IMG/VR virus record: IMGVR_UViG_3300031565_004187
Location: 1-35,074 of that record
Origin: a virus
Strand: one strand, 5' to 3'
DNA length: 35,074 nt
Translations under genes and position numbers: made by a program
In this document: piece by piece, positions 5,761-29,972 of the stretch
Numbering within the stretch: the first letter of the stretch is position 1
Layout of the letters: every line of letters begins with the position of its first letter
Notes under the pieces: model-generated
What the model was told of the DNA's origin: nothing
Database searches by the model: none
The model's input: the letters and a program-made list of their open reading frames with translations, nothing else

Positions 5761-5761
5761 T

Positions 5762-6127
5762 ATGGATGGGACTCGCTCATCGAGATTTGTCAGGGGCTAT
5801 CTCAGTAGACCAGCTTCTTTAGAAATCATCAATAGGGATTACCCTGATGTGGTAATTGGTTTGATTTCTGGTTCACCTTCCATTTCTTACTCCTTGGACT
5901 CTGGTCCTAACGGTGCTAGGAATGTTTTAATAACAACATATATGCAGTTTGAGAAACGATTTCTTCTTCGAGAAGAAGACTTCATAATATGTAAATCTAT
6001 AGCTGAGTTATTCTCTCAGCGTAAAGGTACCCCTGGTCCTGTTTCTGCATTTTTATCTGAACCAATTCAGGATTTAAGGAGTCGCATAGCCGCTTATCTG
6101 ACGGTAGAGTTCGCTGGGAGAGTTTAA
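5762..6127 (+). CDS. Hypothetical protein, 121 aa
   Basis: No family is recognised. The protein appears to have a mixed alpha/beta fold (VVIGLISGSPSISYSLDSG, NVLITTYMQFEKRFLL, and a helical C-terminus LRSRIAAYLTVEFAGRV). It starts one base after the previous stop and ends two bases before the next ATG, so it is clearly part of the same tightly packed operon as the sigma-like genes and the zinc ribbons. No ribosome binding site is obvious, and its translation probably depends on ribosomes arriving from upstream. No membrane helix or signal peptide is seen. Confidence 0.55.
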   Translation: MDGTRSSRFVRGYLSRPASLEIINRDYPDVVIGLISGSPSISYSLDSGPNGARNVLITTYMQFEKRFLLREEDFIICKSIAELFSQRKGTPGPVSAFLSEPIQDLRSRIAAYLTVEFAGRV

Positions 6128-6129
6128 GT

Positions 6130-6324
6130 ATGTCTAGCGAATCTGAAAATCTTGTTGTTCATATGAAGTGTCGTCGTGGAAATGATGCTGCGACTCGTGG
6201 TCAGTCCTGTGATAATATGCAAGCTGAAAAATTATCACAAGATGGAAGTTCATACGTACAGTTTAAATGTTTGAAGTGTAAACATGTTTGGACAGTTCCA
6301 GTCGGCGGGAATTTAATTTTGTGA
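6130..6324 (+). CDS. Small zinc-ribbon protein
   Basis: A protein of 64 aa with a probable zinc ribbon: the first Cys residues near the start (HMKCRRG and QSCDN) and a CxxC knuckle (FKCLKCKHVWTVP, about residues 46-58). Such mini zinc ribbons often bind nucleic acid or dock onto polymerases. GGGAG at about 6117-6121 is an adequate ribosome binding site. The stop TGA overlaps the GTG start of the next ORF (GTGA at 6321), suggesting coupling. The Cys spacing is irregular, so metal binding is likely but not certain. Confidence 0.6.
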   Translation: MSSESENLVVHMKCRRGNDAATRGQSCDNMQAEKLSQDGSSYVQFKCLKCKHVWTVPVGGNLIL

Positions 6325-6563
6325 TTTTATATTGTCCTGATGATAATGGAGGCCTGGAAGCCACTGGCCTCCAAAATGTTTTTTTATGTCCGAGTTGTAA
6401 GTGTATTTTTGAAGTCAAGTTTTCAATGACGAAAATTTCTGGGTCACGAATTCAAAATGCAACCGGAGAACAAAGCTGGAGAAGTCCAGCAATCCTTCAG
6501 GAGTCTACTTCTTCCAGTGGAGAAGTACTCCCATCATCCTTCAGTGGTGGCATTCCTAGGTAA
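6321..6563 (+). CDS. Putative second small zinc-ribbon ORF
   Basis: From GTG 6321 (overlapping the previous stop as GTGA) this 80-aa frame contains ILYCPDDN, then VFLCPSCKCIFEV at about residues 20-32, again a CxxC knuckle. After about residue 40 it is Ser/Gly-rich and without character, and that part overlaps the delta-prime gene by about 107 bp in another frame. A strong hairpin followed by seven Ts lies within its first 65 bases (6347-6385). The gene is therefore less certain than its neighbour: it may be a real mini zinc ribbon with a sloppy tail, or a decayed duplicate. Confidence 0.4.
   Translation: MILYCPDDNGGLEATGLQNVFLCPSCKCIFEVKFSMTKISGSRIQNATGEQSWRSPAILQESTSSSGEVLPSSFSGGIPR
6347..6385 (+). 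terminator. Terminator/attenuator-like hairpin plus T-run
   Basis: TGGAGGCC (6347-6354) pairs perfectly with GGCCTCCA (6366-6373) over an 11-nt loop, and seven Ts follow at 6379-6385 after a five-base spacer. The spacer is longer than in textbook terminators. The element lies between the sigma-like/zinc-ribbon operon and the clamp-loader genes and could partly separate their expression. Confidence 0.4.
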
Positions 6564-7272
6564 TCGTTTTCTTGGCCAGCCACTACTGGTTAAAACAGTT
6601 CTTCAAGAGCATCTTCACGAAGTTGACTTTATTGAAATGGCGCCCGGTGTTGATGGCGCCCGTGAAGTTGTTGAATTTGCTAAAACTGGTCCGGTCGGTA
6701 GTCCAGTAAAAGTTATTCTTGTTGATGATGCTGATCGTTTATCAGAGCCAGCACAAGATGCATTATTGAAATTAACAGAAGAGCCTCCCGAGTCACTGAT
6801 TGTCGTTCTTATTTGTTATGACTCGGGATTTTTACAACCTGCTTTAGCTTCACGAATTCGCGCTGAATTTAGGCTCAATCCGGTTTCTTTGAAAGAGATG
6901 CATGAATATGCTTCTTCTCTTCTCTTACCCGTGTCCGATAGCGCTATTGAAATGGCTTGTGGTCGTCCAGAATTATATCGATTGATTGTTGAAAATGGAT
7001 CTTTTGAAGAATTGCGCGATCAAATAATATCTGCTGCTAAGAAAGAAGTTTCAATTTTATCGAAGCCGCCAAAATTAATACTTGATCTTGAAAACGGAAA
7101 CAATAAAATTAGAGATGCTATTGTTCATGTGATTCGTAATTCGTGTAAACCCTTTTTACATGAATCATCAATTTCAATGCCAATTTTGAAATTTTGTGGT
7201 GTTTTGTCTAGATCAACCTCTGCTAACGCGGAGATTCACTGGTCGAGAATGATTATGAATCTCTTAATGTAA
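6457..7272 (+). CDS. holB: Clamp-loader delta-prime-like subunit
   Basis: A protein of 271 aa with AAA+ clamp-loader features. Residues 24-45 (SHHPSVVAFLGNRFLGQPLL) occupy the Walker A position but lack GKT, as expected for a non-ATP-binding stator. Residues about 86-115 (VKVILVDDADRLSEPAQDALLKLTEEPP) are the Walker B/sensor region typical of DnaX and HolB. SRI at about 131-134 sits where HolB has its SRC motif. A helical collar domain follows. ATG 6457 has no ribosome binding site; GTG 6517 is an alternative but would start only just before HHPS. The gene is 10 nt upstream of the delta-like gene. Together with delta and the DnaX at 26013 it should load the beta-like clamp. Confidence 0.75.
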   Translation: MQPENKAGEVQQSFRSLLLPVEKYSHHPSVVAFLGNRFLGQPLLVKTVLQEHLHEVDFIEMAPGVDGAREVVEFAKTGPVGSPVKVILVDDADRLSEPAQDALLKLTEEPPESLIVVLICYDSGFLQPALASRIRAEFRLNPVSLKEMHEYASSLLLPVSDSAIEMACGRPELYRLIVENGSFEELRDQIISAAKKEVSILSKPPKLILDLENGNNKIRDAIVHVIRNSCKPFLHESSISMPILKFCGVLSRSTSANAEIHWSRMIMNLLM

Positions 7273-7282
7273 TGTTATTTTC

Positions 7283-8203
7283 ATGTCTTCTTTAATTCTT
7301 ATCAGTGGGGAAGAAGAATTTTTGGTTGAAAGAGCGGCAAGAGAAGAAGCGAAATCTTCTCTTGCCTCAGAAATTTTTGAGTATACCATCCCTGATGGCC
7401 TTGAGTCATACGTACGTGATTCTCAGTCATCTTATATATCTGACGGCTCAAGAACTTTCATATTATGGAATGCGAAAGATATTCCAAATTTACCAGAATC
7501 AGATAAGGATACCCTGATATGTGTTTCTCCACCAGGAAAGCGTGTTCTTCAAGATAAACGTTCGAAACGTTCTCTAACGTTTCCGAAATTAAAATCATAC
7601 TCTGATAATAATGATGTCATTAAATGGATCATCAAAGAGGGTGATTGTTTTAACATAAGTCTAACTAGAGTTGCGGGTGCTCTTTTTGTGAACTCAGGAA
7701 CGTGTCTACGGAAACTGCATCGAGAGATCGAGAAGCTTGCTGCGGCGGTACCTCCTAGTACTACTGTCACCCCTGAAGAGGCTCGTTCTTTAATAGTTTT
7801 TTCTGCTGAGATAACGCCTCGTGAGATCCTAGACGCCATATGTGATGGAAACACGATTAAAGCACTTGCCTACTATGATAAATTACAAGAACGAGCAGAA
7901 GAAACCGGGTGGATTATCGCTTATATGCAACGTCATGTATTGCAGCAGCTTAAACTTGAAGAGGTACTTGGACGTAAACTTTCTGAAAGTGATGGTGCCG
8001 CACTTCTTGGTGTTCATCCTTTTATTTTCAAAAAGCTGTCTATTTCAAGACATGGTTTGTGGTCTAAAAGATCTTTAATGTCTAGTCTTAACATTCTCTG
8101 TGATCTTGATATATCACATAAGCGTGGTGATGACTCGGCTCGTTTTGGTATAGAATCTGAAATCATTAGATTGTCTGAGGAGGCTAGGAATGTCAAGCGT
8201 TAG
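7283..8203 (+). CDS. holA: Clamp-loader delta-like subunit
   Basis: A protein of 306 aa. The start (SSLILISGEEEFLVERAAREE) matches HolA/delta, where the first strand leads to G-x-E/D-x-FL and no Walker A lysine. The middle (SLTRVAGALFVNSGTCLRKLHREIEKLAAAV) and the C-terminal helical region (TPREILDAICDGNTIKALAYYDKLQER, residues about 176-202) also fit delta domain II/III. In bacteria delta opens the clamp ring. Its position next to the delta-prime gene supports the call. No ribosome binding site is obvious before ATG 7283. Its 3' end overlaps the start of the ribonucleotide reductase gene by 14 bp and contains that gene's GAGGAGG ribosome binding site. Confidence 0.75.
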   Translation: MSSLILISGEEEFLVERAAREEAKSSLASEIFEYTIPDGLESYVRDSQSSYISDGSRTFILWNAKDIPNLPESDKDTLICVSPPGKRVLQDKRSKRSLTFPKLKSYSDNNDVIKWIIKEGDCFNISLTRVAGALFVNSGTCLRKLHREIEKLAAAVPPSTTVTPEEARSLIVFSAEITPREILDAICDGNTIKALAYYDKLQERAEETGWIIAYMQRHVLQQLKLEEVLGRKLSESDGAALLGVHPFIFKKLSISRHGLWSKRSLMSSLNILCDLDISHKRGDDSARFGIESEIIRLSEEARNVKR

Positions 8204-11066
8204 TGGGGTGTCTGCACAGGTTGTTAATATTAATAAGGTTCATACGTCTAAGGACGTTGCGAATGAAGTTGGATTTTGGCCTCGTGTATTCACTTCTGAT
8301 AGCATCCATCCATTCGACCAAGTTGAATGGAAAACTGTTGATGCTTGCATACGGAATGGAAAAGGCGATATTGTTTTTGAACAAAAGAGTATTGAAGTAC
8401 CGGCTTGGTGGACACAAAACAATGTTAATGTTGTTGCGGATAAATATTTTCGTGTTGTAGGTGGCGTACGCGAAAACTCTGTAAAACAGATGTTCAATCG
8501 TGTTTGTTCTGTAATTCGTGGGTGGGCGTCAGAACAAAATTATTTTAATACGGAAAAAGATGCTCAAGTTTTTGAAGAAGAGCTCACTTTTGCACTTCTT
8601 CATCAATATGGAGCTTTCAATTCTCCTGTTTGGTTCAATTTAGGTATTGAAGGACGGAAGCCCGCAGCTTCTGCCTGCTTTATTTCCGGAATCGGAGACT
8701 CACTTGACGATATAATGAAGTTTCAAGAATCCGAACTTATGATTTTTCGTGGTGGCTCCGGGTCTGGAGCTAATCTTTCAAATCTACGATCTTCTTATGA
8801 AAAGATCTCTGCCGGGTCTTACACATCTGGCCCATTGTCTTGGATGCAAGGTAACAATGCTTATGCCGGTGCCATGAAATCTGGTGGCGCAACAAGAAAC
8901 GCAGCGAAAATGGTTGTGATGGATATGGACCATCCAGACATTTTGGAGACTCGAGATGGTCGTCCTGGATTTATTCGTTGTAAGTCGTGGGCGGAGAAGC
9001 TTGCTCATGACCTTGTTTCTGTTGGTTATTCGTCTGAATATGATAACCCAATTGGTGCTTATAAGCTTGTTCCGTATCAAAATGCAAATCACTCGATATC
9101 TGTTCCTGACGCGTTCATGCAGTCCATGCTTGATGATGGAACTTGGCAAACTCGTGAACGAAAAGGCGGGAAAGTTGTTCACAATCATAAAGCTCGTGAG
9201 CTTTGGAAAGAAATTTCTGATGCCGCGTGGAGTTGTGGCGATCCTGGAGTTCAATACTCTGACACTATAAACAAATGGCATACAACGCCCAAGAGTGGTC
9301 GTATTCGCGCTTCAAATCCGTGTTCAGAATTTCTTCATATTGATAATACGGCTTGCAATCTGTGCGCGATCAATCTTACGAAATTTTTTGATGGTCGTAA
9401 GTTTGTTCCTGAAAGATTTGAACAAGCGACCAGAATTTTTAGCATTTCTCAGATGGCTATTGTTGCGAAGGCTTCGTATCCTACTGATGAAATCGGAGCT
9501 AATTCGAATAAGCTTCGTCCGATTGGCACTAATTATGGTGATCTCGGCGCTCTGATAATGAATCTCGGCTACGGTTATGACTCGGATGAGGGACGCGCTA
9601 TCGCTGCTAGAATGGCATCTTTGATGACTGGATACGTATACCTGACTTCAGCCAAGATCGCTGCTAGAGTCGGCGCTTTTTCTGACTTCGACAAAAACCG
9701 TGATGACATGCTTCGCGTTATGCGAATGCATCAAGAAGCTGACGACAAGATTATCGAGCGTTGGCACATTGAAAAAGATCCAATCAATGACGATGTTGTG
9801 TCGTTATCAGCAAACATATGGCGTGAAGCCATATCCCTTGGTGAGAAACACGGATATAACGTTTCGCAAGCTACACTCCAAGCTCCGCTTGGTACGATTT
9901 CGTTCCTGATGGGTATGAACACTACTGGTATTGAACCGTCGTTCTCTCTTGTTTCATATAAATCGCTCGTTGGTGGTGGCGTGATGAAGCTCGTGAACTT
10001 TGGTGTTCGCGAAGCTCTTGTAAACCTTGGTTATTCTAACGACGAAGTTGATGAGATTTGTAAGTACATTGAGTCTTATGACACCATTGAAGGAGCTCCT
10101 GGTCTGAAGGAAGAGCATCTTCTTGTTTTTGATACCGCGATGCCAGCTGGACCTTCTGGGCGTTATTTATCCCCGATGGCTCACATTAAAATGATGGCTG
10201 CTATCCAGCCACTCATCACATGCGCCATGAGTAAGACAGTGAATTTACCGGAAAGCGTTACACCAGAAGAGATTGCAAAAATTTATGAAGAATCGTGGCG
10301 TTTAGGGCTGAAGTGCATCGCGTTGTATCGCGATAAGTGCAAAGCCTCTCAGCCGTTAGTAACGAAAGACGTAAAAAATCCTCAGATTAAAGCCGCTTTG
10401 GACGCAGTTGATGTGAAAATTAAGGAAGTTATTCGAGAAGTCAGAGTTCCGGTTGTTCATCGAGAGAAGATGCCTGCGGATGTTAAGAGTTGGCGTCATA
10501 AGTTTGAAATTGATGGATATAAAGGTTATTTGATCGTTAGTGAATACCCAAATGGCCTTCCTGGTGAGATTTTCCTGAAGCTTGGAAAACCTGGTAGTAC
10601 TGTTTCCGGTCTCATTGATGGTTTTACTCAACTTTGTTCCATAGCCATTCAGTATGGAATACCGCTTCCGAAGCTAATTACGAGCTTCATTGATACTCGA
10701 TTTGAACCTGCTGGTATGACGACCAACAAGAATGTTCGTTTTGCCAAGAGCTTGTACGATTACATGTTCAAAGTTCTAGATCTTCATTATTATGGTGGCG
10801 AATACTCCGGTCTTTCTGGCCGTGTTGATGAACCTGGCGATGAGTCTAATGATTACGTGAATGAGAGCATAGCGAAAGACGGTGCTCAGTCCATTCCTCC
10901 GTCACCGATCCCGTCGGTCTCACCATCACCATTCACTGTAGACGCAGTGAAGGTTCCTCGTAAGAATCTCGGTGGGCCACCGTGTGCTCGTTGTGGTAAT
11001 ATCACACAACGTAATGGTTCTTGTTATCTTTGTTCTTCTTGCGGGACCACGACGGGCTGTTCGTGA
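8190..11066 (+). CDS. nrdJ: Adenosylcobalamin-dependent (class II) ribonucleotide reductase
   Basis: A protein of 958 aa that reduces ribonucleotides to deoxyribonucleotides using B12 as radical source, so it works with or without oxygen and needs no NrdB. N376-P-C378-S-E380 is the active-site Asn/Cys/Glu motif, with C378 as the thiyl cysteine. C163 (ASACFIS) and C389 (or C392) are the expected redox pair. The segments FRGGSGSGANLSNLRSS and GPLSWMQ are typical of NrdJ. The C-terminus ends in a Cys-rich tail (CARCG, CYLCSSCG, GCS) that re-reduces the active site. GAGGAGG at 8176-8182 gives strong initiation. The enzyme is full-length with all key residues present. It supplies dNTPs for phage replication and depends on host cobalamin. 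Confidence 0.95.
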   Translation: MSSVSGVSAQVVNINKVHTSKDVANEVGFWPRVFTSDSIHPFDQVEWKTVDACIRNGKGDIVFEQKSIEVPAWWTQNNVNVVADKYFRVVGGVRENSVKQMFNRVCSVIRGWASEQNYFNTEKDAQVFEEELTFALLHQYGAFNSPVWFNLGIEGRKPAASACFISGIGDSLDDIMKFQESELMIFRGGSGSGANLSNLRSSYEKISAGSYTSGPLSWMQGNNAYAGAMKSGGATRNAAKMVVMDMDHPDILETRDGRPGFIRCKSWAEKLAHDLVSVGYSSEYDNPIGAYKLVPYQNANHSISVPDAFMQSMLDDGTWQTRERKGGKVVHNHKARELWKEISDAAWSCGDPGVQYSDTINKWHTTPKSGRIRASNPCSEFLHIDNTACNLCAINLTKFFDGRKFVPERFEQATRIFSISQMAIVAKASYPTDEIGANSNKLRPIGTNYGDLGALIMNLGYGYDSDEGRAIAARMASLMTGYVYLTSAKIAARVGAFSDFDKNRDDMLRVMRMHQEADDKIIERWHIEKDPINDDVVSLSANIWREAISLGEKHGYNVSQATLQAPLGTISFLMGMNTTGIEPSFSLVSYKSLVGGGVMKLVNFGVREALVNLGYSNDEVDEICKYIESYDTIEGAPGLKEEHLLVFDTAMPAGPSGRYLSPMAHIKMMAAIQPLITCAMSKTVNLPESVTPEEIAKIYEESWRLGLKCIALYRDKCKASQPLVTKDVKNPQIKAALDAVDVKIKEVIREVRVPVVHREKMPADVKSWRHKFEIDGYKGYLIVSEYPNGLPGEIFLKLGKPGSTVSGLIDGFTQLCSIAIQYGIPLPKLITSFIDTRFEPAGMTTNKNVRFAKSLYDYMFKVLDLHYYGGEYSGLSGRVDEPGDESNDYVNESIAKDGAQSIPPSPIPSVSPSPFTVDAVKVPRKNLGGPPCARCGNITQRNGSCYLCSSCGTTTGCS

Positions 11067-11135
11067 AGCAGCGAGAAAGCGTTTCGGAGAGTTCGCTCGG
11101 TTGAACTTCCCGGAAGCGCATGAACGGGGAGCCTC

Positions 11136-11393
11136 ATGAGTAAATTTCGATATGATAACGACCGAGATAGGTTCTCTCACGGATTTGATGCCGGTACCAT
11201 CGTCGATGGAACAATTCACCTTGATCTAGATACTGGTGAATTCGTTCTTGTTGATGACGACGGTGTGGCATTTTCAAGTCAGGATTTACTGAAATCCATG
11301 GATGGTAAGCGCGTTCGTATTTCTTGCGTGGCTTTTGATGCTATGGAGGAGATTGAACGAATGATTCAAAACTCTCAAACCGATATTAATTAA
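11136..11393 (+). CDS. Small hypothetical protein, 85 aa
   Basis: An acidic small protein rich in beta strands (TIVDGTIHLDLDTGEFVLVDDDGVAF, then GKRVRISCVAFDAMEEIERMI). The strand pattern could be a small OB or barrel fold, but no family is recognised. GGGGAG directly upstream (about 11127-11132) is a good ribosome binding site. It sits between the ribonucleotide reductase and the tandem LRV genes. The 69-bp gap before it shows no clear promoter or hairpin. Confidence 0.55.
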   Translation: MSKFRYDNDRDRFSHGFDAGTIVDGTIHLDLDTGEFVLVDDDGVAFSSQDLLKSMDGKRVRISCVAFDAMEEIERMIQNSQTDIN

Positions 11394-11441
11394 TATACCT
11401 GTTCGTAAGTTTACAACTTTTTAATTATCTGATATATATGT

Positions 11442-12878
11442 ATGAGTATGCTTCTCTCATTGATCGCTTTACGTATTGCCGGGAAGGTTGATAACCTCAA
11501 AGCGAAACATCCAGATTTATCTTCAGAAATTGATGAGATTCATCAAAAAGATCCGTCAAAAAATGATAAGTATACTGATTGGTCTGTCAGGCAAATACTT
11601 AGAGGTCATTCTTTAAATGATATTATACCTACCGTTGAATTATTTCATAAGAAATATCACATCTTAGAGAAGAAGGACATAAATCAGTACAAGGATCTAA
11701 AGGATTTAGAGAATGTTCTGAAAGACCTTCCGGAGTCTAAAACTCAAGAGAAGATCAAGTCTAAGACAACCGGATCTATTAAATTATACGAAGATGGTAA
11801 GTTCGTTCTTATAAGAATCGATGGTAAGAGAGCTTGTATTGAATATGGCAAGGGCACCAAGTGGTGCATATCGATGAAGGACGCTAATTATTATGAACGA
11901 TATCGAAATGAAAATGTCGTATTTTATTTTCTGATCAATAAATCACCGACTGAACAAGAAACCCGTGATAGTATTGATAAGATAGCGTTCGCCGTTCAAA
12001 AAGATGACTCAACTACTGAGATTTTTAACTCTAATGATGACTCGATCGAATCAAACCCGTACTCAGAAATATCCGGGAAAATAAATCAAATAATCAAATC
12101 CGACTTACCAAACGCTCCAGAAACGTCAATTAGTAAACTTAAAAAAAGGAAACTATCCGAAGAAGAAATTTTAAAAATTGTGAACAATAATGATGAAGAA
12201 ACGAGTGATATTCATCTATATTTATCTCAGAGTCCGAATACGTCTCCAAGTATCCTGGCTAAGTTATCGTTATCGGATAAGGTGGGTGTTCGTCAGCAAG
12301 TGGCCATAAACCCTAACACGCCTCCAGAGGTCTTAGCTAAATTATCCGATGATAATGAATATGTTCGTTATGGTGTGGCCATGAACCCTAACACGCCTCC
12401 AAATATCTTGGCTAAGTTATCGTTATCGGATAAGGTGGGTGTTCGTCAGCAAGTGGCCTATAATCCGAATACGCCTCCTGAAGCTTTATCTCGTTTAGCT
12501 GATGATAGTAATAAGGATGTTCGTCGGCGTGCAGCTTATAATTCGAATACGCCTTCAGAAATCTTGGCCAAGTTAGCTGACGATGATAATGAGGGTGTTC
12601 GTCGGAGTGTAGCCATAAACCCTAACACGCCTTCAGAAGTCTTGGCTCGTTTAGCTAGTGATAGTGATGAGGAGGTTCGTCGTAATGTGGCCTATAACCC
12701 TAACACACCGCCTGAAGTTTTAGTCAAGTTAGCTGAAGACGAATATGAGAGTGTTCGTTATTATACGGCCGATAATCCTAACACGCCTTCAGAAATCTTG
12801 GCTAAATTATCCGGTGATGACGATGAATATGTTCGTAACGTGGCGAAAAAACGTTTGAATTTGGCTTCCATGTGGTGA
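11442..12878 (+). CDS. GTKWC-domain protein with 8 leucine-rich-variant (LRV) repeats, copy 1
   Basis: A protein of 478 aa in two parts. The N-terminal part (1 to about 235) has a helical start (LLSLIALRIAGKVDNLKAKHPD), the phage-typical DPSKNDKYTDWSVRQILRG block (33-51) and a compact domain with GKGTKWCIS at W141/C142, followed by ENVVFYFLINK and DKIAFAV. The rest is eight 24-residue repeats of the type NPNTPPEVLAKLADD..VR..VA, matching the LRV/HEAT-like superhelical scaffold; such scaffolds usually bind proteins. No ribosome binding site is evident before ATG 11442. A near-identical paralogue starts 6 nt after its stop. The biochemical role is unknown, and the conserved WC invites the guess of a catalytic or metal-binding cysteine. 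Confidence 0.75.
   Translation: MSMLLSLIALRIAGKVDNLKAKHPDLSSEIDEIHQKDPSKNDKYTDWSVRQILRGHSLNDIIPTVELFHKKYHILEKKDINQYKDLKDLENVLKDLPESKTQEKIKSKTTGSIKLYEDGKFVLIRIDGKRACIEYGKGTKWCISMKDANYYERYRNENVVFYFLINKSPTEQETRDSIDKIAFAVQKDDSTTEIFNSNDDSIESNPYSEISGKINQIIKSDLPNAPETSISKLKKRKLSEEEILKIVNNNDEETSDIHLYLSQSPNTSPSILAKLSLSDKVGVRQQVAINPNTPPEVLAKLSDDNEYVRYGVAMNPNTPPNILAKLSLSDKVGVRQQVAYNPNTPPEALSRLADDSNKDVRRRAAYNSNTPSEILAKLADDDNEGVRRSVAINPNTPSEVLARLASDSDEEVRRNVAYNPNTPPEVLVKLAEDEYESVRYYTADNPNTPSEILAKLSGDDDEYVRNVAKKRLNLASMW
12225..12860 (+). repeat. Array of eight ~72-bp LRV-encoding repeats
   Basis: Degenerate 72-bp (24-codon) units encode N-P-N-T-P-P-E-x-L-A-K-L plus an acidic linker and VR. Some units are almost identical at the DNA level: the segment with TTATCGGATAAGGTGGGTG occurs at both about 12270 and 12424. 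This points to recent unit duplication inside the gene. Confidence 0.8.
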
Positions 12879-12884
12879 AAAATC

Positions 12885-14654
12885 ATGAGTATGCTTCTCT
12901 CATTGATCGCTTTACGTATTGCTGGAAAGGTTGATAACCTTAAAGCGAAACATCCTGATTTATCTGCAGAAATTGATGAGATTCATCAAAAGGACCCGTC
13001 AAAAAATGATAAATACATAGATTGGTCTGTCAGACAGATACTGAGAGGTCACTCTTTAAATGACATTATACCTACCGTTGAATTATTTCATAAGAAATTT
13101 TCTCTGCTGGAAAAGAAGGATATAAATCAGTACAAAGATCTAAAGGATTTAGAAAATATACTAAAAAGTTTACCCGAATCGTCTAAAACTCAAGAGAAGA
13201 TCAAGTCTAAGACAACCGGATCTGTTAAACTGTATGAAGACGGTAAATTCGTTCTCATAAGAATTGACGAGAAGAGAGCATGCGTTGAATACGGCAAAGG
13301 CACCAAATGGTGCATATCGATGAAGGATGCTAGTTTTTTTGCACGATATCGAAGTGAAAATGTCGTATTTTATTTTCTGATCAACAAAGCACCGACTGAA
13401 GAAGAAACCCGCGATAGTATTGATAAGATCGCGTTCGCCGTTCATAGAGATCGTGACATGACTGAGATTTTTAAATCTAATGATGATACGATCAAATCAA
13501 ATCCATATTCAGAAATATCCGGGAAAATAGATCAAATAATCAAATCTGATCTGCCAAGCGCTCCGGAGACAAAACTTTATAAACTTAAAAAAGGAAAACT
13601 ATCCGAAGAAGAAATTCGAGAGATTGTGAACGATGATGACGACGATACGAATTATATTCATTCATACTTGTCTGAGAGTCCAAATACGCCTCCAGATATC
13701 TTGGCTAAATTATCCGATAATGATGATTATATGGTTCGTCTTAGTGTGGCCGAGAATCCTAGCACGCCTCCAGAAATTTTAGCCAAGTTAGCTAGTGATG
13801 GTGATGAGGTTCGTCGTTCTGTTGCCCATAATCCTAGCACGCCTCCAGAGATCTTATCTAAGTTAGCTGAAGACGAATATAGACGGGTTCGTCTTCGTGT
13901 GGCCCGTAATCCTAACACGCCTCCTGAAGCTTTATCTCGTTTAGCTGATGACAAGGACACGGTGATTCGTCAGAATGTGGCCAATAACCCTGACACGCCT
14001 CCAGGAGCTTTAGCCAAGTTAGCTGATGATAATGACGATGTCATGGTTCGTGGTTATGTGGCCGAGAATCCTAGCACGCCTCCAGAAGCCTTAGCCAAGT
14101 TAGCTGATGATGAATATAGGCAGGTTCGTTCTCATGTGGCCGAGAACCGTAACACGCCTTTAGATATACTGTCTCGTTTAGCTGATGACTTGGAGGGCTC
14201 GGTTCGTCTTAGTGTGGCCGGTAATCCGAATACGCCTCCAGAGATCTTGACTAAATTAGCTGATGATGTTAGTTATAATGTGGCCGAGAATCCTAGCACG
14301 CCTCCAGAGACCTTAGCCAAGTTAGCTAAAGATGAAGATAGACGGGTTCGTCTTCGTGTAGCCCGTAATTCTAGTGCGCCTCCAGAGATCTTAGCCAAGT
14401 TGGCTGAAGATGAAGACAGATATGTTCGTCAGTATGTGGCCGAGAACAATAGTACGTCTCCAGAGATATTAATCAAGTTAGCTGATGACTTGGCGGGTTC
14501 GGTTCGTAATAATGTGGCTGGTAATCATAACACGCCTCCAGAGATCTTAGCCAAGTTAGCTGATGATGACAATGAAGAGGTTCGTAACACAGCGAAAAAA
14601 CGTTTGAATTTGATCATAGGGAGTGATCAAGGTTTTTTTCGATATACGGTATGA
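12885..14654 (+). CDS. GTKWC-domain protein with 12 LRV repeats, copy 2
   Basis: A protein of 589 aa and a tandem paralogue of the preceding gene. The first 38 bases of the two genes are identical, and the N-terminal domains align without large gaps (GTKWC here at W142/C143, with ENVVFYFLINK and DKIAFAV). It differs mainly in the repeat part, which has 12 LRV units, one of them shortened (TKLADDVSYNVAENP). The gene starts 6 nt after copy 1 without a clear ribosome binding site. Its last 40 bp overlap the 3' end of the minus-strand ligase gene, and a terminator-like hairpin lies inside this overlap. The pair is best explained by gene duplication followed by change in repeat number. The function is unknown; it is probably a binding scaffold attached to a conserved cysteine domain. 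Confidence 0.75.
   Translation: MSMLLSLIALRIAGKVDNLKAKHPDLSAEIDEIHQKDPSKNDKYIDWSVRQILRGHSLNDIIPTVELFHKKFSLLEKKDINQYKDLKDLENILKSLPESSKTQEKIKSKTTGSVKLYEDGKFVLIRIDEKRACVEYGKGTKWCISMKDASFFARYRSENVVFYFLINKAPTEEETRDSIDKIAFAVHRDRDMTEIFKSNDDTIKSNPYSEISGKIDQIIKSDLPSAPETKLYKLKKGKLSEEEIREIVNDDDDDTNYIHSYLSESPNTPPDILAKLSDNDDYMVRLSVAENPSTPPEILAKLASDGDEVRRSVAHNPSTPPEILSKLAEDEYRRVRLRVARNPNTPPEALSRLADDKDTVIRQNVANNPDTPPGALAKLADDNDDVMVRGYVAENPSTPPEALAKLADDEYRQVRSHVAENRNTPLDILSRLADDLEGSVRLSVAGNPNTPPEILTKLADDVSYNVAENPSTPPETLAKLAKDEDRRVRLRVARNSSAPPEILAKLAEDEDRYVRQYVAENNSTSPEILIKLADDLAGSVRNNVAGNHNTPPEILAKLADDDNEEVRNTAKKRLNLIIGSDQGFFRYTV
13670..14600 (+). repeat. Array of twelve ~72-bp LRV-encoding repeats
   Basis: Twelve degenerate units encode NPxTPPEILAKLADD..VR..VA. 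Short exact blocks such as CCTAGCACGCCTCCAGA recur several times (for example near 13758, 13832, 14070 and 14291), so unequal recombination within the array is likely. Confidence 0.8.
14610..14639. terminator. Rho-independent terminator between convergent genes
   Basis: TTGATCA (14610-14616) pairs with TGATCAA (14624-14630) over a 7-nt loop, followed by GG and seven Ts (14633-14639). It lies inside the overlapping 3' ends of copy 2 of the LRV gene (+) and the ligase gene (-), and the ligase stop codon falls in the left arm. On the minus strand a run of six Ts (complement of 14595-14600) follows about 9 nt later, so weak bidirectional action is possible. Confidence 0.6.
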
Positions 14655-15705
14655 CGTCATTCCGTCGTGAAACGAGAACTCGATCACCCGAACATAACGC
14701 GAGGTCATGAAATAAAGAGAGATTATGTAATGATATATTCGTTATTGTTACACCGCCGACCTCCACCGGCTCTACTACGGCTACTGGTGTAATTCGACCT
14801 GAATTTCCAACTTGCCACTTTATATCTATCACTCGTGTCTCTCTCATCGCCGGATCAAATTTCCACGCAATCTGACCCTTGGGTCTTCCGTTTAGTGATC
14901 CCATCTCTTCGAGCAATTCAAGATCACTGATTGAAACGACCATCCCATCTATTTCGTATGGGATATTGTCTCTGCTAAGTGCTTCCTTTTCATAAGTTCT
15001 CTTTATATATGAAAAATCGCCATTATCGTATGGCGGAACTTTAAACCCGAGTTCCTTGAGCCATTGCATAGTGAGTTGCATTGTTTTAATTTTATTTTCG
15101 GAATATACCCAATATGCCAAGAATTCCAGGTCTTTACAAGCTTCTCCTCCTCCTTTTTTCTCTCGGACTTTTCCCGCCGCCGTATTACGCGGATTTGCGT
15201 ACTCTTCTGAATACTTTGACCCGAAAACGTTTTTCATCATTACGACTTCGCCACGAACCGTAATGTCGTCAGTTGTCGATATTGATTTCGGCACGGACGG
15301 AACTTTTGATATATTATGTGTGACATTCTCTCCGATTATCCCATCTCCTCGAGTTACGCATCTGATCAGTTTTCCGCCCCTATATACGAGTTCCATTGAT
15401 GATCCGTCGATCTTATGTGTAATGAACCATTCTTTTGCGTTTGACTTCAACGCCCACTCGTCCAGTTCCTTTTCTGAATTAACCTTCCCGAGCGATCCCA
15501 TTGGTATCTCGTGTTTTACTTTTTCCCATACAGAATATTGGGACGGTGCGGCACCTATTGCGACAACATCTTCATCATTTGGGGATAACTGGGAGAGTTC
15601 ATCAACCCATGCATCATACTGTTGGTCGCTGACATTGGGTGTCAGATTATAGTAGTCTGTCTTAGCTTCCCGGATTAATTTCTTCAATTCTTCTTGGCGT
15701 TCCAT
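14614..15705 (-). CDS. ligA: NAD+-dependent DNA ligase, N-terminal half (Ia/adenylation/OB)
   Basis: A protein of 363 aa. Domain Ia, which binds NMN, is at 1-50 (YYNLTPNVSDQQYDAWVDEL). The adenylation domain has the catalytic K98 in KIDG, preceded by HEIPMGSLGKV, with TRGDGIIGENVTHN, RGEVVM, NPRNTAAGKVR and AWKF blocks. An OB fold (SGRITPVAVVEPVEVGGVTI to RVLVSRRNDVIPYI) ends the protein at about residue 358. The zinc finger, HhH and BRCT domains of a normal ligase (about 670 aa) are missing and are encoded by the plus-strand gene at 16464-17273. It is the only minus-strand gene in the window. Only a weak ribosome binding site precedes the ATG. It should catalyse nick sealing if it assembles with the other half. 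Confidence 0.93.
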   Translation of the reverse strand: MERQEELKKLIREAKTDYYNLTPNVSDQQYDAWVDELSQLSPNDEDVVAIGAAPSQYSVWEKVKHEIPMGSLGKVNSEKELDEWALKSNAKEWFITHKIDGSSMELVYRGGKLIRCVTRGDGIIGENVTHNISKVPSVPKSISTTDDITVRGEVVMMKNVFGSKYSEEYANPRNTAAGKVREKKGGGEACKDLEFLAYWVYSENKIKTMQLTMQWLKELGFKVPPYDNGDFSYIKRTYEKEALSRDNIPYEIDGMVVSISDLELLEEMGSLNGRPKGQIAWKFDPAMRETRVIDIKWQVGNSGRITPVAVVEPVEVGGVTITNISLHNLSLFHDLALCSGDRVLVSRRNDVIPYIEKNLDHSL

Positions 15706-15779
15706 CCTATAAAATTACACCTTGTATGGTTTGGTTTGATAGATAGGCTCTTTTTAATTTTCGACAATAAAGGATATTT
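15706..15779. promoter_or_regulatory. Divergent intergenic region
   Basis: This 74-bp AT-rich gap separates the divergent ligase N-half (-) from the acidic protein (+). At least one promoter firing leftward must lie here or inside the neighbouring gene. No consensus -35/-10 pair could be assigned with confidence. AAAGGA at about 15769-15774 is the ribosome binding site of the plus-strand gene. Confidence 0.4.
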
Positions 15780-16433
15780 ATGGACACCACATTTCGCACT
15801 ATTGCCTCTGACGTTCAGAGGTCCATGGCCAATAAAACTAATTCTAGCGATACCCCGACCGGCCATAAATCTGCACTTTCCCATGCCGCCGTTTCAGTTC
15901 AAAAAGCTATGTCAGGCGTGCACACGGCCGCAGAAGACCACGACGCTGAATGGCAGCGAGTGAATTCTTACGTGGCGGATGTTTTAAAAGATTCTCACGT
16001 TTTATATGCCAAGCTCGCCCGCCTTCAGGGCGACTTTGCGGGTGAGGAACTTGCCAATCTCTCTAAGATTTCTGAAGCCGTTTTGTCCATCGGTTCTGAG
16101 CTCTCGAGATTCTCAAAAGCCTTCTACGAAGGCAAGTATGATATGCTTCAGAGTTCCTTTACATATGGTGAAGGAGGAGGGGCTCCGATACCCAATTCTT
16201 CTCCTGAAAGTATGGAAGCTGGTGCTGGTGGATCGCCAGCCGAGTCTTATGACCAGGAAGCCCCCGGTCAGGCTTCTCCTGACATGGGAGACATGGATAT
16301 TCCAGACTATGAAGCTCCTGATGAAGAGTTCTCGGAGGAGCCTTCCGATGAGCCTTCCGATGAGCCTTCCGATGAGCCTGAAGAGGAAGAAGAGGAAGAA
16401 GAGGAAGAAGAAGAGTCTGAAGATACTGAATAA
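15780..16433 (+). CDS. Hypothetical protein with acidic repeat tail
   Basis: A protein of 217 aa. Residues 1 to about 120 look helical (FRTIASDVQRSMANK; SALSHAAVSVQKAMSGVH; EDHDAEWQRVNSYVADVL; NLSKISEAVLSIGSELSRFSKAFYEG). Residues about 121-170 are a Gly/Pro/Ser linker. The tail is intensely acidic, with three SDEP units followed by a poly-Glu run. Acidic tails of this kind occur on DNA mimics, SSB-like proteins and scaffolding proteins, but no family is recognised. It lies between the two halves of the split ligase, so it may be the gene whose insertion or inversion accompanied the split. It has a good ribosome binding site. Confidence 0.6.
   Translation: MDTTFRTIASDVQRSMANKTNSSDTPTGHKSALSHAAVSVQKAMSGVHTAAEDHDAEWQRVNSYVADVLKDSHVLYAKLARLQGDFAGEELANLSKISEAVLSIGSELSRFSKAFYEGKYDMLQSSFTYGEGGGAPIPNSSPESMEAGAGGSPAESYDQEAPGQASPDMGDMDIPDYEAPDEEFSEEPSDEPSDEPSDEPEEEEEEEEEEEESEDTE
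16341..16424 (+). repeat. Short tandem repeats encoding SDEP and poly-Glu
   Basis: Three exact copies of the 12-mer CCTTCCGATGAG (16341-16376) are followed by GAA/GAG codons in a 9-bp pattern. This microsatellite-like stretch is likely to vary in length by slippage. Confidence 0.8.
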
Positions 16434-16463
16434 CATTCACATATTTACTGTATTTTTCCCTAT

Positions 16464-17273
16464 ATGGGAAACCAAGATATATTTAAGATTCCAGACTATT
16501 GTCCTGTATGTGTTGGACCTACATCATCTGAAGGGTTTTTCTTGTGGTGTCGCAACAAGGCGTGCCCAGCTAAACTTGCCGGATCTGTTAAGGTTTGGAT
16601 CAAAAGACTCGGGTTACTTCACTGGGGAGATGCTCTTGTTGACCAGTTGACTGACCCGGATAACCCTCATATTAATTCCATATCTGATTTATATAAACTC
16701 ACTATTGATGATATAGCAGTTTGCACTTCTGGTTCTAAGATGGCCCGGAAGTGTTATGAAGTTCTTCATGAGAACAAGAAGATCCCGCTCGAGCTTCTTC
16801 TTGCTTCTTTGAATATTCCGAATTTCGCTCTTGCCACAGCTACGGATATTGTCCAAGCTGGATATGATACTGTTGAAAAAGTCATTTCTCTGACTTATGA
16901 TGACCTTCTGAAAATTCCCAATATTGGAGAAGTGACTGCAAGACAGGTTTTGGATGGACTGCAAGAACGTCAGAGCGTTATACTTGAACTAGCAGAAGTT
17001 CTTTACCTGCAGAAGCCTGCCGTTGGGATGCTTACTGGAAAATCATTTTGCATAACGGGGGCCACCTCAAAACCCAGAAAAGCTGTTGAAAAAATGATTT
17101 TGGAGGCCGGTGGGGTTGTTAAGAGTTCGGTAGGTACCGGTCTTTCATTTTTGGTTACGAATGATCAGGATACTACTAGTTCAAAAATGAAGAATGCTAA
17201 GAAGCATAACGTTCAGGTCATTTCAGAGAATAATTTGTATAGTCTTATGTCCGCCACTTCTAGTGTAACATGA
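16464..17273 (+). CDS. NAD+-dependent DNA ligase, C-terminal half (Zn finger/HhH/BRCT)
   Basis: A protein of 269 aa matching the missing end of the minus-strand ligase. It has a four-Cys zinc finger (CPVC at about 13-16, then WCRNKACPAKL at about 28-38), a helix-hairpin-helix domain (GLLHWGDALVDQL; LLASLNIPNFALATATDIVQ; LLKIPNIGEVTARQVLDGL, to about 180) and a BRCT domain (about 190-265; LTGKSFCITGATSKPRKAVEKMILEAGG). In ordinary LigA the linker after the OB fold leads straight into this zinc finger, so the two polypeptides together rebuild one ligase without obvious overlap. T5-like phages are known to carry a ligase annotated as two subunits. Here the halves are on opposite strands. The stop overlaps the next ATG (ATGA). 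Confidence 0.92.
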   Translation: MGNQDIFKIPDYCPVCVGPTSSEGFFLWCRNKACPAKLAGSVKVWIKRLGLLHWGDALVDQLTDPDNPHINSISDLYKLTIDDIAVCTSGSKMARKCYEVLHENKKIPLELLLASLNIPNFALATATDIVQAGYDTVEKVISLTYDDLLKIPNIGEVTARQVLDGLQERQSVILELAEVLYLQKPAVGMLTGKSFCITGATSKPRKAVEKMILEAGGVVKSSVGTGLSFLVTNDQDTTSSKMKNAKKHNVQVISENNLYSLMSATSSVT

Positions 17274-19489
17274 GTATGATGGAAATAACTGCAAAAATAT
17301 CTGGGATTCAATTTCAAAATCGCCAAACTGGTTTTTATGTTATGCGGGTTCTGATTGGCAATAACTCAAAGCAGACAACTGTTCGTGGAACATTTCCTGG
17401 GGTTTCCATATCTTCTGGTTTGAAGGCCAAGTTTACTGGAGGATACGAAGAACATGAAAAATTCGGAAAGCAATTTCATGCCACGGACTGTGAAGTTATT
17501 CTAGAAAAAGGAAGAAATGGAATCATAGTATACCTGACTGCCAATGTTCCTTCTATTGGAATAATTACAGCGACTAAATTATATGATGCCTTCGGTGATG
17601 ATCTTATCGATATACTTAATAACGACCCTGATAAAATTAACCAACTTCCATTCCTCACCAAAAATCAGTCCACTGCTATTATTAAAGAGTGGTCTGAAGC
17701 CTCCGAGAGCCGAACTGTAGCTATCTTTTTGACTGATCTAGGTCTTAACGCTTTACAAATCAAAAGTGTTTTTACGAAATTTGGAATCAAAACAAAAGAT
17801 GTTTTGCATGAAGATCCATACAGGCTTTGTGAATGCCATGCTGTCGGATTCGCCACCGCCGATAACGCGGCTCGGAAAATTGGTATTGGTGTAAATGACC
17901 CTAGAAGAATTTGCGCTATAATTACTTTCGCGATGCGAGAGCTATCCTCATCAGATGGTCACATGTATTGCACATCTGCTCAAATTTTAACTTATATATC
18001 TAAGAAGATGTTTCGGAGAAATTCTATTGAGGCTTTTTCGCACGGTGAGTACATGTCTGACTCACATTTTTATTCAGGTCTGAAACAACTCCAAGACTCC
18101 GGAGGTGTTGTTTGTGCTGATGATCATATTTATTTGGCTCATAACTGGAATCATGAATCAATATCAGCAAGTTGCATTGCCGATATCATAGGTCAACCTC
18201 CTCGATTGATGGGTGACTTGAAATCCATATTAAACGATTTTGAGAAATCTCGAAATATAATACTTTCGGATGAACAACGAGACGCTTTTCTCATGCTTGA
18301 GAAATCAAGACTTTGTGTCGTATCCGGATATCCCGGTACAGGTAAAACAACTCTTGTTTCTGCATTTGTTCACTTATTTGAGAAATGTAATATTCATTAC
18401 ACTCTAATGTCTCCGACCGGAATCGCTGCCAAACGATTATCTCAAGTAACCGGAAAGCCTGCGTCAACTATTCATAGAGCTCTTGGTTTTAAGAAAGATG
18501 GTAGTTGGGAATTCAACTCCAGTGATCGTTATCATGTTGATGCCATAATCGTTGACGAAATGTCAATGGTTGACGGGTCCACTTTATTTCATCTTATATC
18601 CGCTTTGTCACCAACGACTATCGTTATCATGATAGGAGACTCGGATCAGTTACCGGCTGTTGGAGCCGGGTATGTTCTAAATAGTTTGATGAATTGCTCT
18701 CGTGTCCCACACGTGTCTTTGACTCGTGTTTATCGTCAGGATAAACAGTCAGATATAATTACTGTCGCTCATTCTATTTTGAATGGTGACCCTGTTGATA
18801 CGACAATGAATCATGAGTCTCAATTTGTTTATTTAAATATTCCTATTGAAAATGTTGTTAGTGAGATTTGTAAGTTATCAACCACATTGAAGGCTCGTGA
18901 TTTAAATTTTCAAGTCATTGCTCCTATGTATGATGGGGACCTTGGCGTTGATAACCTCAATAGGAGTCTTCGAGGAGTGTTGAACCCTGATTTTATTTCT
19001 GATAAAGCTACGAAGCTTAAACACGGGAACGTAGACCTGTTTGAAGGTGACCGTGTCATGATCGTTAGAAACGATTATGAGCGGATGATTTTCAATGGTG
19101 ATGTTGGAAAAGTAACGAGAATATCTGTTAAGCAAGATGAAGTTGAAGTGAAAATTTTTGACTGGTTTGATCAAGAATCAACATTTCCGAGATATGTTGA
19201 TAAAATATTCTTGTTTAAAATTGAAGAAGCACGTAGTATGCTAAAAGTTGCATATGCTTGTACTGCTCATAAAGTTCAGGGACAAGAATTTGATTTTGTC
19301 GTAATGCCTATGACGATGCAATATGGTATTATGTTATATAAAAATCTCGTATATACTGCCATTACTCGTGCGAAGAAAAAAGTATTCGTATTTGGGGATC
19401 CGAAGGCTTTTTCTTTTGCTATTCATAACGAACGAGAAACTGTTCGAAATTCGAATTTAGGTGAATTAATTCAAAAGAATCTGAATTAG
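17270..19489 (+). CDS. RecD2-like SF1B DNA helicase
   Basis: A protein of 739 aa. The N-terminal OB-like domain (TVRGTFPGVSISSGLKAKFTGGYEEHEKFGKQFHA) and the following HhH region (VPSIGIITATKLYDAFG, about 90-140) identify the RecD2 type rather than the RecBCD RecD subunit. The motor has Walker A SGYPGTGKTT with K359, Walker B VDEMS with D429/E430, the motif III-like GDSDQLPAVGAGYVL, and C-terminal motif VI-like TAHKVQGQEFD and YTAITRAKKKV. RecD2 enzymes unwind DNA 5'-3' and act in repair and recombination. ATG 17270 overlaps the stop of the ligase C-half, so the two are co-translated. All motifs appear intact. Confidence 0.9.
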   Translation: MSMMEITAKISGIQFQNRQTGFYVMRVLIGNNSKQTTVRGTFPGVSISSGLKAKFTGGYEEHEKFGKQFHATDCEVILEKGRNGIIVYLTANVPSIGIITATKLYDAFGDDLIDILNNDPDKINQLPFLTKNQSTAIIKEWSEASESRTVAIFLTDLGLNALQIKSVFTKFGIKTKDVLHEDPYRLCECHAVGFATADNAARKIGIGVNDPRRICAIITFAMRELSSSDGHMYCTSAQILTYISKKMFRRNSIEAFSHGEYMSDSHFYSGLKQLQDSGGVVCADDHIYLAHNWNHESISASCIADIIGQPPRLMGDLKSILNDFEKSRNIILSDEQRDAFLMLEKSRLCVVSGYPGTGKTTLVSAFVHLFEKCNIHYTLMSPTGIAAKRLSQVTGKPASTIHRALGFKKDGSWEFNSSDRYHVDAIIVDEMSMVDGSTLFHLISALSPTTIVIMIGDSDQLPAVGAGYVLNSLMNCSRVPHVSLTRVYRQDKQSDIITVAHSILNGDPVDTTMNHESQFVYLNIPIENVVSEICKLSTTLKARDLNFQVIAPMYDGDLGVDNLNRSLRGVLNPDFISDKATKLKHGNVDLFEGDRVMIVRNDYERMIFNGDVGKVTRISVKQDEVEVKIFDWFDQESTFPRYVDKIFLFKIEEARSMLKVAYACTAHKVQGQEFDFVVMPMTMQYGIMLYKNLVYTAITRAKKKVFVFGDPKAFSFAIHNERETVRNSNLGELIQKNLN

Positions 19490-19549
19490 TTCGTTTTGCT
19501 TTCATCCAGTATTGTTTATTTCCGAGCTCAGACGGCTCAAGAGATTTTC

Positions 19550-20545
19550 ATGTCAGAAATCAAACTAATAACATCATCTGATGAGCATCTCGCTGATTTA
19601 AATCCGGGATTTCGTAAAGATAATTACCGCGATTCTATACTAAAGAAGATAGAGTGGCAGGGTGATTTCGCTCGTAAATGCGGTGCTTCGGCTATTTTAC
19701 GAGGCGGAGACTTTTTCCATGTAAAAGCTGCGAATAAAACAACATATGCTACAACGTCTGCAGCGGCTGAGATTCATCGCCGTTATTCATGCCCGACACA
19801 TGCCATTGCGGGCAATCATGATATGTCTAATAATGATCCCTCATCGGTCCATAGACAGCCACTCGGCATAATGTTTAAAAGTGGTGTTTTTCAACCACTT
19901 CGCGATGAGTCATTCGTCGATGGGACACTTAAAGTTAGGGTTGTTGGAGTTGAATATACGACTGATTTAGCTGTGGACGGCCTTGCTGATCTTGTCAGGA
20001 AACGCCCTGGCGACACTTATACGGTTGCCTTTGTCCACGCTCTTGCTTCCATGGCTCCCGAAGAACGTATTCAGTCATTTTTCAACGAAAATATTTTCGA
20101 TTATCGTGATTTGGTGTTTGAAGGATGTCCTGACGTTTATGTCTTTGGTCATTATCATAAAGACCAGGGTATTGTTGATCACATGGGGATTAAATTTGTT
20201 AATCTCGGTGCCGTATCTCGTGGCGCTTTAACATTTGAAAATTTAGACAGAAAACCGAAAGTTGGATTGATTAGAGCCGACTCTCGCGGTATTACGGTAG
20301 AAGAACATGTTATTCCTCATGAAGATGCTTCTGATGTATTTGATATTGAACTTAAAAAGAGACTCGACAGTGAGCGTCGCTCTTTAAATGAGTTTATTAC
20401 GCAACTCAAAATGAACAGAGACTTGGCTTCTGATTCATCAATGGAACTACGTAAGAAAGAACTGGATCAATTTCCACAAGATGTCAGGAATTTAGCTCTT
20501 GAGTTACTCGAGGCTGCTGAGGCTGGCACTGCTGATGATAATTAG
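19550..20545 (+). CDS. SbcD/Mre11-like metallophosphoesterase
   Basis: About 331 aa from ATG 19550; the frame is open from 19496, but MSEIKLITSSDEH is the natural beginning. The phosphoesterase motifs are in order: SDEHL (DxH), RGGDFFHV (GDxxH-like), AGNHD, FVHA and FGHYHK. The enzyme probably acts as a Mn-dependent exo/endonuclease with an SbcC/Rad50-type ATPase, like T4 gp47 with gp46. The C-terminal region is helical (LKKRLDSERRSLNEFITQLKMN), possibly the partner-binding part. A matching ATPase C-half is at 22886. It follows the RecD2-like gene and precedes a nuclease gene by 9 nt, fitting a recombination operon. Confidence 0.88.
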   Translation: MSEIKLITSSDEHLADLNPGFRKDNYRDSILKKIEWQGDFARKCGASAILRGGDFFHVKAANKTTYATTSAAAEIHRRYSCPTHAIAGNHDMSNNDPSSVHRQPLGIMFKSGVFQPLRDESFVDGTLKVRVVGVEYTTDLAVDGLADLVRKRPGDTYTVAFVHALASMAPEERIQSFFNENIFDYRDLVFEGCPDVYVFGHYHKDQGIVDHMGIKFVNLGAVSRGALTFENLDRKPKVGLIRADSRGITVEEHVIPHEDASDVFDIELKKRLDSERRSLNEFITQLKMNRDLASDSSMELRKKELDQFPQDVRNLALELLEAAEAGTADDN

Positions 20546-29198: not shown

Positions 29199-29972
29199 AT
29201 GTCATCACACATCCTGATTCAGGATCCGAATAATATATCATCGAGATTCAGTAATCGCGATCGTCTTGGCTACGATCACGATTCAGATGATTTAGAAGGT
29301 CTGATTGAGCATAATCTTGCTCCTGACCTTGAAGAAGATTTATCAAGTGATGTACATTCACTTGATTTTGAATCGATATCTAGGTATCTGGATAGGATTC
29401 CTCCTCGAGAAGCTGATCTAATACGTTTATATCACAAAGATAAAATGAAGCAAGAACAAATAGCAAAGCTATTTGGAATTACTCAAGCCGCCGTTTCATA
29501 TCGTTTGCATAGAGGAATAAAACGTATTCAGTTTCTCCGAACTATTCCCGAACTAGATCGAGACCAGTTCGAACTCGAACTCGGATCGAAATTCGTGGAT
29601 CAAGATCGTGAAATCTTATGGAGGATGTACGAGACGACATGTCAATCAGAAATTGCGAAGCAAATGAAGTTGACTCAGGGTCGCGTTCGTCATAGGTTTT
29701 TCCGAGCTCTTCAGAAAATCAAAGACTTGATCTCCGAAGAAGCTCGCGAAAAGCAGGTCCACGCTCAGATGCTTCGGAAACAAGGTCGAGGAATTAATGA
29801 AGTTGAGGAAGCAGAGAAAGCCCTCGAAGAAGTCATCAACAATTCTAAATATGGAAAATACTGGACAGTATACTTCGCTATTTCAGACAAACACTTCAAT
29901 ATACTGCATGAAGTGAGCTTACCACAATTTCGGGACCGTGGTGACGCTCAAATTTTGACGATAACTGGGTGA
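29199..29972 (+). CDS. Transcription regulator with two sigma-region-4-like HTHs
   Basis: A protein of 257 aa. Residues 1-60 are acidic and probably disordered. HTH 1 spans about 66-113: IPPREADLIRLYHKDKMKQEQIAKLFGITQAAVSYRLHRGIKRI, a standard sigma-4/LuxR-like pattern. HTH 2 spans about 133-176: DQDREILWRMYETTCQSEIAKQMKLTQGRVRHRFFRALQKIK. No sigma region 2 is present, so it may not be a complete sigma factor. It could bind -35-like elements as a co-activator or appropriator of host RNA polymerase. The C-terminal part (180-257) is a helix followed by a beta-like end (YWTVYFAISDKHF). The gene stands apart from the upstream operon behind a structured leader, so it is probably regulated separately. 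Confidence 0.7.
   Translation: MSSHILIQDPNNISSRFSNRDRLGYDHDSDDLEGLIEHNLAPDLEEDLSSDVHSLDFESISRYLDRIPPREADLIRLYHKDKMKQEQIAKLFGITQAAVSYRLHRGIKRIQFLRTIPELDRDQFELELGSKFVDQDREILWRMYETTCQSEIAKQMKLTQGRVRHRFFRALQKIKDLISEEAREKQVHAQMLRKQGRGINEVEEAEKALEEVINNSKYGKYWTVYFAISDKHFNILHEVSLPQFRDRGDAQILTITG

Follow-up and report, generated by a model that had tools for sequence, protein, structure and literature searches.

The NAD+-dependent DNA ligase of the T5-like phages (Demerecviridae) is encoded by two genes, LigA and LigB, and is cut between the OB fold and the zinc finger, so that the N-subunit consists of domain Ia, the nucleotidyltransferase (NTase) domain and the OB fold, and the C-subunit of the zinc finger, HhH and BRCT domains. 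A two-chain enzyme of this type, the heterodimeric ligase of PR1 phage, has been solved (PDB 9HU3, 9I5I), a precedent that we take from the PDB title of 9HU3 (“PR1 phage heterodimeric DNA ligase in complex with 21-mer nicked DNA containing phage nick sequence”) and its chains. Here, we analyze a ligase cut at the same point in a 35,074-base IMG/VR virus record, IMGVR_UViG_3300031565_004187 (the window, to whose positions all coordinates refer unless a contig is named). An earlier note on this DNA had proposed that an NAD+-dependent DNA ligase is divided there between two genes on opposite strands, called the N-half and the C-half below. The two genes very probably code for the subunits of a single heterodimeric NAD+-dependent DNA ligase; they would have been split from a fused gene and are probably expressed together. 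The group that carries them consists of very large uncultured phages with a real, conserved and independently evolved two-gene NAD+ ligase.

Two genes that make up one LigA

14614..15705, minus strand: N-half of NAD+-dependent DNA ligase, 363 amino acids (aa); domain Ia, NTase, OB fold
16464..17273, plus strand: C-half of NAD+-dependent DNA ligase, 269 aa; four-Cys zinc finger, HhH, BRCT

The N-half matches the Pfam families DNA_ligase_aden (5e-50) and DNA_ligase_OB (7e-23) and ends in ...NDVIPYIEKNLDHSL, directly past the OB fold, and the C-half matches BRCT (1e-11) and HhH_5 (3e-7). On the LigA model TIGR00575 (652 positions), the two halves span positions 1-379 and 385-652, and on phrog_3869 (656 positions) 7-382 and 384-653, respectively. 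These profile matches confirm the two-gene ligase of the earlier note, with its coordinates and domains. Since the coverage of TIGR00575 is nearly continuous, the N-half and the C-half together are one LigA from which almost nothing has been lost. The cut lies in the linker that separates the OB fold from the zinc finger, and the LigA domain order of OB, four-Cys zinc finger, HhH and BRCT is complete, but spread over two polypeptides. No second NAD+-ligase adenylation domain was found in the window besides the N-half's own.

The residues needed for catalysis are retained. The columns K98, D100, G101, R119, E153, R173, D253 and K282 are invariant among 22 members of the group described below and 34 outgroups, and the NTase motifs I, III, IV and V are all present, with K98-D100-G101 (KIDG), E153, D253 and K282 unchanged in the 22 members. 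At the nicotinamide mononucleotide (NMN) site of domain Ia, Y18, D27 and D31 are invariant and Y30 occurs in 21 of the 22. The zinc-finger cysteines, C13, C16, C29 and C34 of the C-half, are invariant in the 11 aligned members. Both halves are under strong purifying selection, with nonsynonymous divergence (dN) of 0.12-0.34 and synonymous divergence (dS) of about 2.6 or saturated between members, the near-identical pair L034/L036 being left out of this comparison.

The predicted model of the C-half (pLDDT 80, pTM 0.58) matches both LigA structures and 9HU3 chain B, and in profile matches to 9HU3 the N-half profile falls on chain A and the C-half profile on chain B. The possibility raised in the earlier note that the C-half resembles a non-ligase protein better was rejected, as was its reading as a BRCT protein other than a ligase: its best non-ligase match, an NCBIfam exonuclease, scores 30 bits vs 133 bits for LigA.

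Conservation of the divergent layout

15780..16433, plus strand: protein X, 217 aa; helical core at residues ~50-126, disordered acidic tail
17270..19489, plus strand: RecD2-like helicase; shares 4 nucleotides (nt) with the end of the C-half gene and lies downstream of it in all members
19496..20545, plus strand: metallophosphoesterase; weakly resembles SbcD and is the next conserved gene of the unit in most members

Scans of viral contigs followed by tblastn and HMM mapping yielded 22 further contigs, up to 436 kb in length, whose N-halves are 50-71% identical to that of the window. The order N (−), X (+), C (+), RecD2 (+) is kept in 23/23 members (the 22 contigs and the window), which become 21 distinct members, window included, when the near-duplicate pairs L004/L005 and L034/L036 are taken into account. 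The divergent orientation and the acidic-tailed gene between the halves, both described in the earlier note, thus hold for the whole group, with homologues of X in all 22 relatives, and the gene-order comparison proposed there gave the same result for every one of them. The spacing is also largely preserved. In most members, 38-95 nt separate N and X; the seven exceptions have a gap of 251-2028 nt or, in L039, an overlap of 8 nt. X and C lie 13-41 nt apart in all members but L034/L036 (823 nt), and C and RecD2 no more than 59 nt apart in all but two (540 and 682 nt). An additional contig end, L048, bears X and C, and it is only at this contig end that a C-half was seen without an N-half.

Misassembly, chance and a one-off inversion were rejected as explanations, because the identical arrangement recurs in 22 other contigs, mostly from different metagenomes. 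The conserved order is therefore not a local rearrangement. Elsewhere, the divergent split layout was not found among 50,697 phage records searched by tblastn, with gene order inspected in a sample, and the recovered viral contigs, a search that was not exhaustive; a scan of genome contigs returned solely distant fused ligases, 24-30% identical. The terminase (PF03237), searched for the sake of phage taxonomy, gave one weak match only.

Origin of the split

A tree of the concatenated N and C parts (FastTree, LG+gamma, 56 taxa) recovers the divergent group as monophyletic with a support of 0.999. Its sister group is mostly fused (L037, L038 and L012, plus the same-strand split L055) and joins the window clade with a support of 0.981, and the T5-like pair (VCPH, L023) lies far away. 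The divergent group is again monophyletic in separate N and C trees, whose deeper nodes are weakly supported. Consequently, a split shared by descent with the T5-like phages was rejected, and the split of the window clade arose separately, so that two-subunit ligases of the replicative type have originated in phages a second time, independently.

The sister group also bears on the inversion suggested in the earlier note. On the 363-kb contig L037, a fused ligase (7971-9857, plus strand) directly precedes RecD2 (9958-12012, plus strand), which supports a past inversion. Since both genes of L037 share one strand, the position and strand of the C-half are most likely the ancestral ones, and it is the N-half that was inverted.

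A possible route to the split is offered by L055, a 72.8-kb IMG/VR contig with its locus at 4514-8795. Here, the ligase is cut between the OB fold and the zinc finger with both parts on the same strand, a TnsA-like nuclease gene (7054-8001) lies exactly between the two parts, and an intein-like insert directly follows the KLDG motif. Two more ligases split on a single strand, at L062:2356-8789 and L060:1-8783, have several genes between their parts, among them a GIY-YIG nuclease in L062. A mobile nuclease may have caused the split of the window clade.

Putative expression signals

15712..15719, minus strand: promoter-like box TGTAATTT, 14 to 7 nt ahead of the N-half start codon
16449..16456, plus strand: promoter-like box TGTATTTT, 15 to 8 nt ahead of the C-half start codon
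15744..15755, minus strand: conserved 12-mer AAAAAGAGCCTA, consensus ACAAAGRGCYTA, read as TAGRCYCTTTGT on the strand of X; upstream of X
15770..15774, plus strand: Shine-Dalgarno-like AAGGA of X

The N-half start has no Shine-Dalgarno sequence. Instead, a box of the form [CT]GTANNNT is found at -18 to -11 ahead of the C-half in 21/21 members, the N-half in 17/21, the phosphoesterase in 14/18, RecD2 in 5/21 and X in 1/21; the members are related and these counts are not independent trials, but the intergenic sequence has otherwise strongly diverged. The background frequency is 0.9%, and of the open reading frames with 120 aa or more in two relatives, 24/189 carry the box. The ten box-bearing genes scanned in two relatives include those for RuvB, family-A DNA polymerase, SNF2 helicase, PrimPol, dNMP kinase and RtcB. 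The box was missing ahead of every fused ligase checked.

In Deinococcus-Thermus, leaderless genes are known to have TANNNT as their -10 element, directly ahead of the start codon (PMC12340547), and TANNNT is the common -10 motif in Mycobacterium tuberculosis (PMC3898074). By this likeness, the [CT]GTANNNT box would be a promoter giving near-leaderless mRNAs, and it is possible that the box-bearing genes form a near-leaderless promoter class in the large-phage clade. As a side observation, the [CT]GTANNNT box, about 13 nt ahead of the ATG, marks a replication-rich class of genes without Shine-Dalgarno sequences, including genes in L113-L124. Hairpins around the YGTA box were considered and found unconvincing (15 observed vs 7.8 in shuffles in one genome, about equal in another). 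Among seven large contigs, no phage RNA polymerase beta' (PF04997) was detected. The window also encodes a sigma-70 region 4 protein (29199-29972, plus strand), a candidate reader of phage-specific promoters.

Because the two halves lie on opposite strands, they are on separate transcripts. The earlier note had concluded that they are expressed independently, of which the separate transcripts stand; however, the same promoter-like box precedes both, so the two halves are probably co-regulated. X appears to be under a different signal, since it has its own conserved upstream 12-mer, and this 12-mer, TAGRCYCTTTGT, still accompanies X in L035, in which N lies 2 kb off; the 12-mer would thus belong to the X unit. 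The Shine-Dalgarno sequence of X occurs in 10/21 members. Therefore, N and C probably belong to one promoter class as separate transcripts, co-regulated in trans, with X under another signal. A start-proximal promoter-like box for replication genes is thereby indicated in an uncultured group of large phages.

These data also bear on whether the halves have parted in function, the N-half serving as a minimal stand-alone NAD+ ligase and the C-half as an HhH/BRCT DNA-binding repair factor working with RecD2 and the phosphoesterase. The C-half reads in the direction of X, RecD2 and the phosphoesterase and opposite to the N-half, its stop codon is overlapped by RecD2 in the window, and single ligase domains do exist in phage proteins, such as solo NLig-Ia (PMC9503650). 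Nevertheless, we regard such a parting as improbable: the C-half retains the full zinc-HhH-BRCT architecture, the four cysteines of the finger being intact in every aligned member, is never seen without the N-half except at the contig end L048, and shares with it a box that is missing from X and from most RecD2 genes, and the same split point yields a heterodimer in PR1.

Protein X and other neighbors

The X family has no Pfam match above the cut-off and no useful match in PHROG, among PDB sequences or among viral folds. The ligase could be a ternary complex with X or be regulated by it, with X as a third subunit, an assembly factor or a DNA mimic. Every divergent member has X, which is missing from the records of five relatives whose ligase is fused or lies on one strand (L037, L038, L040, L012 and L055, some of these records being fragments). 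X adjoins the C-half in nearly all members, and its acidic tail is found in all aligned members. On the other hand, X starts from a different signal, with a Shine-Dalgarno sequence and another upstream motif, X evolves in weaker correlation with C (r 0.50) than the other neighbors do, and fold and family matches are lacking. A role of X in the ligase is thus unlikely, if slightly less so than a parting of the halves.

Some features of the surrounding genes may be recorded here. RecD2 is far longer in L008:1982-6571, L028:2932-6249 and L032:2411-5938 than elsewhere, the additions being insert-like and perhaps inteins, and the RecD2 matches of L008 split into pieces. In the window, a gene at 8190-11066 (plus strand) encodes a ribonucleotide reductase whose match is to the N-terminal domain of the B12-dependent class II enzymes. 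At 11442-14654 (plus strand), there are two paralogous genes in tandem, both with long leucine-rich-variant repeats; the second shares 41 bases with the 3' end of the N-half, which is on the opposite strand.

ATP-dependent ligases in large relatives

A survey found that viral genomes typically encode either an NAD+ or an ATP ligase (PMC9503650). The occurrence of both in the same phages here runs counter to this near-exclusive use of one type. An ATP-dependent DNA ligase domain protein of about 400 aa occurs in 6/8 searched contigs longer than 190 kb. For example, L064:1018-2286, L068:447-1571 and L071:765-1991 encode ATP-dependent DNA ligases with a matching OB domain in all three, and that of L071 scores 326 bits on PRK09125 (cut-off 200). 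By eye, the N-terminal region of these three proteins includes a stretch rich in Cys and His that resembles a SWIM finger. In addition, a shorter ATP-ligase-like domain of about 220 aa is present in 8/8 contigs longer than 190 kb, with a longer frame in G009. The ATP ligase is known from these large relatives, and the window covers only 35 kb of its phage; none was found in the fused sister record G013. The earlier note had held that a second full-length ligase would speak against its proposal. Such ligases do occur in the large relatives, but they belong to the ATP-dependent family, and no second NAD+ ligase, as judged from the adenylation domain, was found among the 12 records searched.

Accordingly, the split gene could be a degenerate ligase in the course of being lost and supplanted by the co-encoded ATP-dependent enzyme, for which the ATP-ligase genes in large relatives and their absence from G013 would speak. 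This is very improbable, since the halves are intact, the catalytic residues are invariant, and dN is far below dS across a deep clade.

Predicted assembly and activity of the pair

The heterodimer is the best explanation of the two genes, because the PR1 two-chain enzyme, cut at the same point, is solved. By homology, the halves would assemble physically, and the pair is predicted to seal nicks in an NAD+-dependent manner. The N-subunit (Ia-NTase-OB) would transfer AMP from NAD+ onto Lys98 and perform the chemistry. The zinc finger of the C-subunit (zinc finger-HhH-BRCT) would dock on the OB fold and the clamp would close on nicked DNA, enabling sealing, as in PR1 and the T5-like enzymes. As to origin, a fused ligase directly upstream of recD2 would have been cut between the OB fold and the zinc finger, after which the C-part would have retained its place and strand, the N-part would have been inverted, and X would have ended up between them. 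For both transcripts, the same replication-class box would act as the promoter, a few bases ahead of the start codon, and so the two subunits could be made together though unable to share an mRNA.

Three observations weigh against this reading. The column of the motif IV lysine, which we take to be K290 of E. coli LigA, holds S, T or R in the divergent clade, and is also variable in the fused relatives. The distances of N co-vary with those of C (r 0.74) no more strongly than with those of RecD2 (0.73) or the metallophosphoesterase (0.79), and this co-variation therefore lends no specific support to a complex. Finally, the split NAD+ ligase may not be the main or sole ligase, because large relatives also encode an ATP-dependent one.

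A fuller scheme, in which the opposite-strand subunits are co-regulated by the replication-class near-leaderless box, possibly through a phage sigma factor, X is a third component, and labor is divided with the ATP ligase, may be put forward only tentatively. Whatever its details, the conserved divergent layout rules out one mRNA for both subunits, and the balance of subunits without an operon becomes testable.

Comparison with known systems

The single-chain LigA enzymes (E. coli LigA, phage G gp236, BONAISHI ORF198, L037, L038 and L012) share their domains and catalytic residues with the window pair. Unlike the window clade, they are encoded by one gene, without the box, and without X in the relatives searched. 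The ligase of L055, from the sister group, is cut between the OB fold and the zinc finger as in the window, but its parts share a strand, with the TnsA-like gene between them and the intein-like insert. Among the T5-like phages, LigA and LigB are on the same strand in 6/6 sampled (VCPH, Spc35, JSF12, TS3, DU_PP_V and KEY), whereas the halves are divergent in 23/23 members of the window clade. The earlier note knew of no other case of the layout. This is right for the opposite strands; however, one or two small genes already lie between LigA and LigB in the T5-like VCPH, JSF12 and KEY, as X does in the window. Therefore, the split itself is of a known kind, and it is the opposite-strand layout together with the shared start-proximal box that is new.

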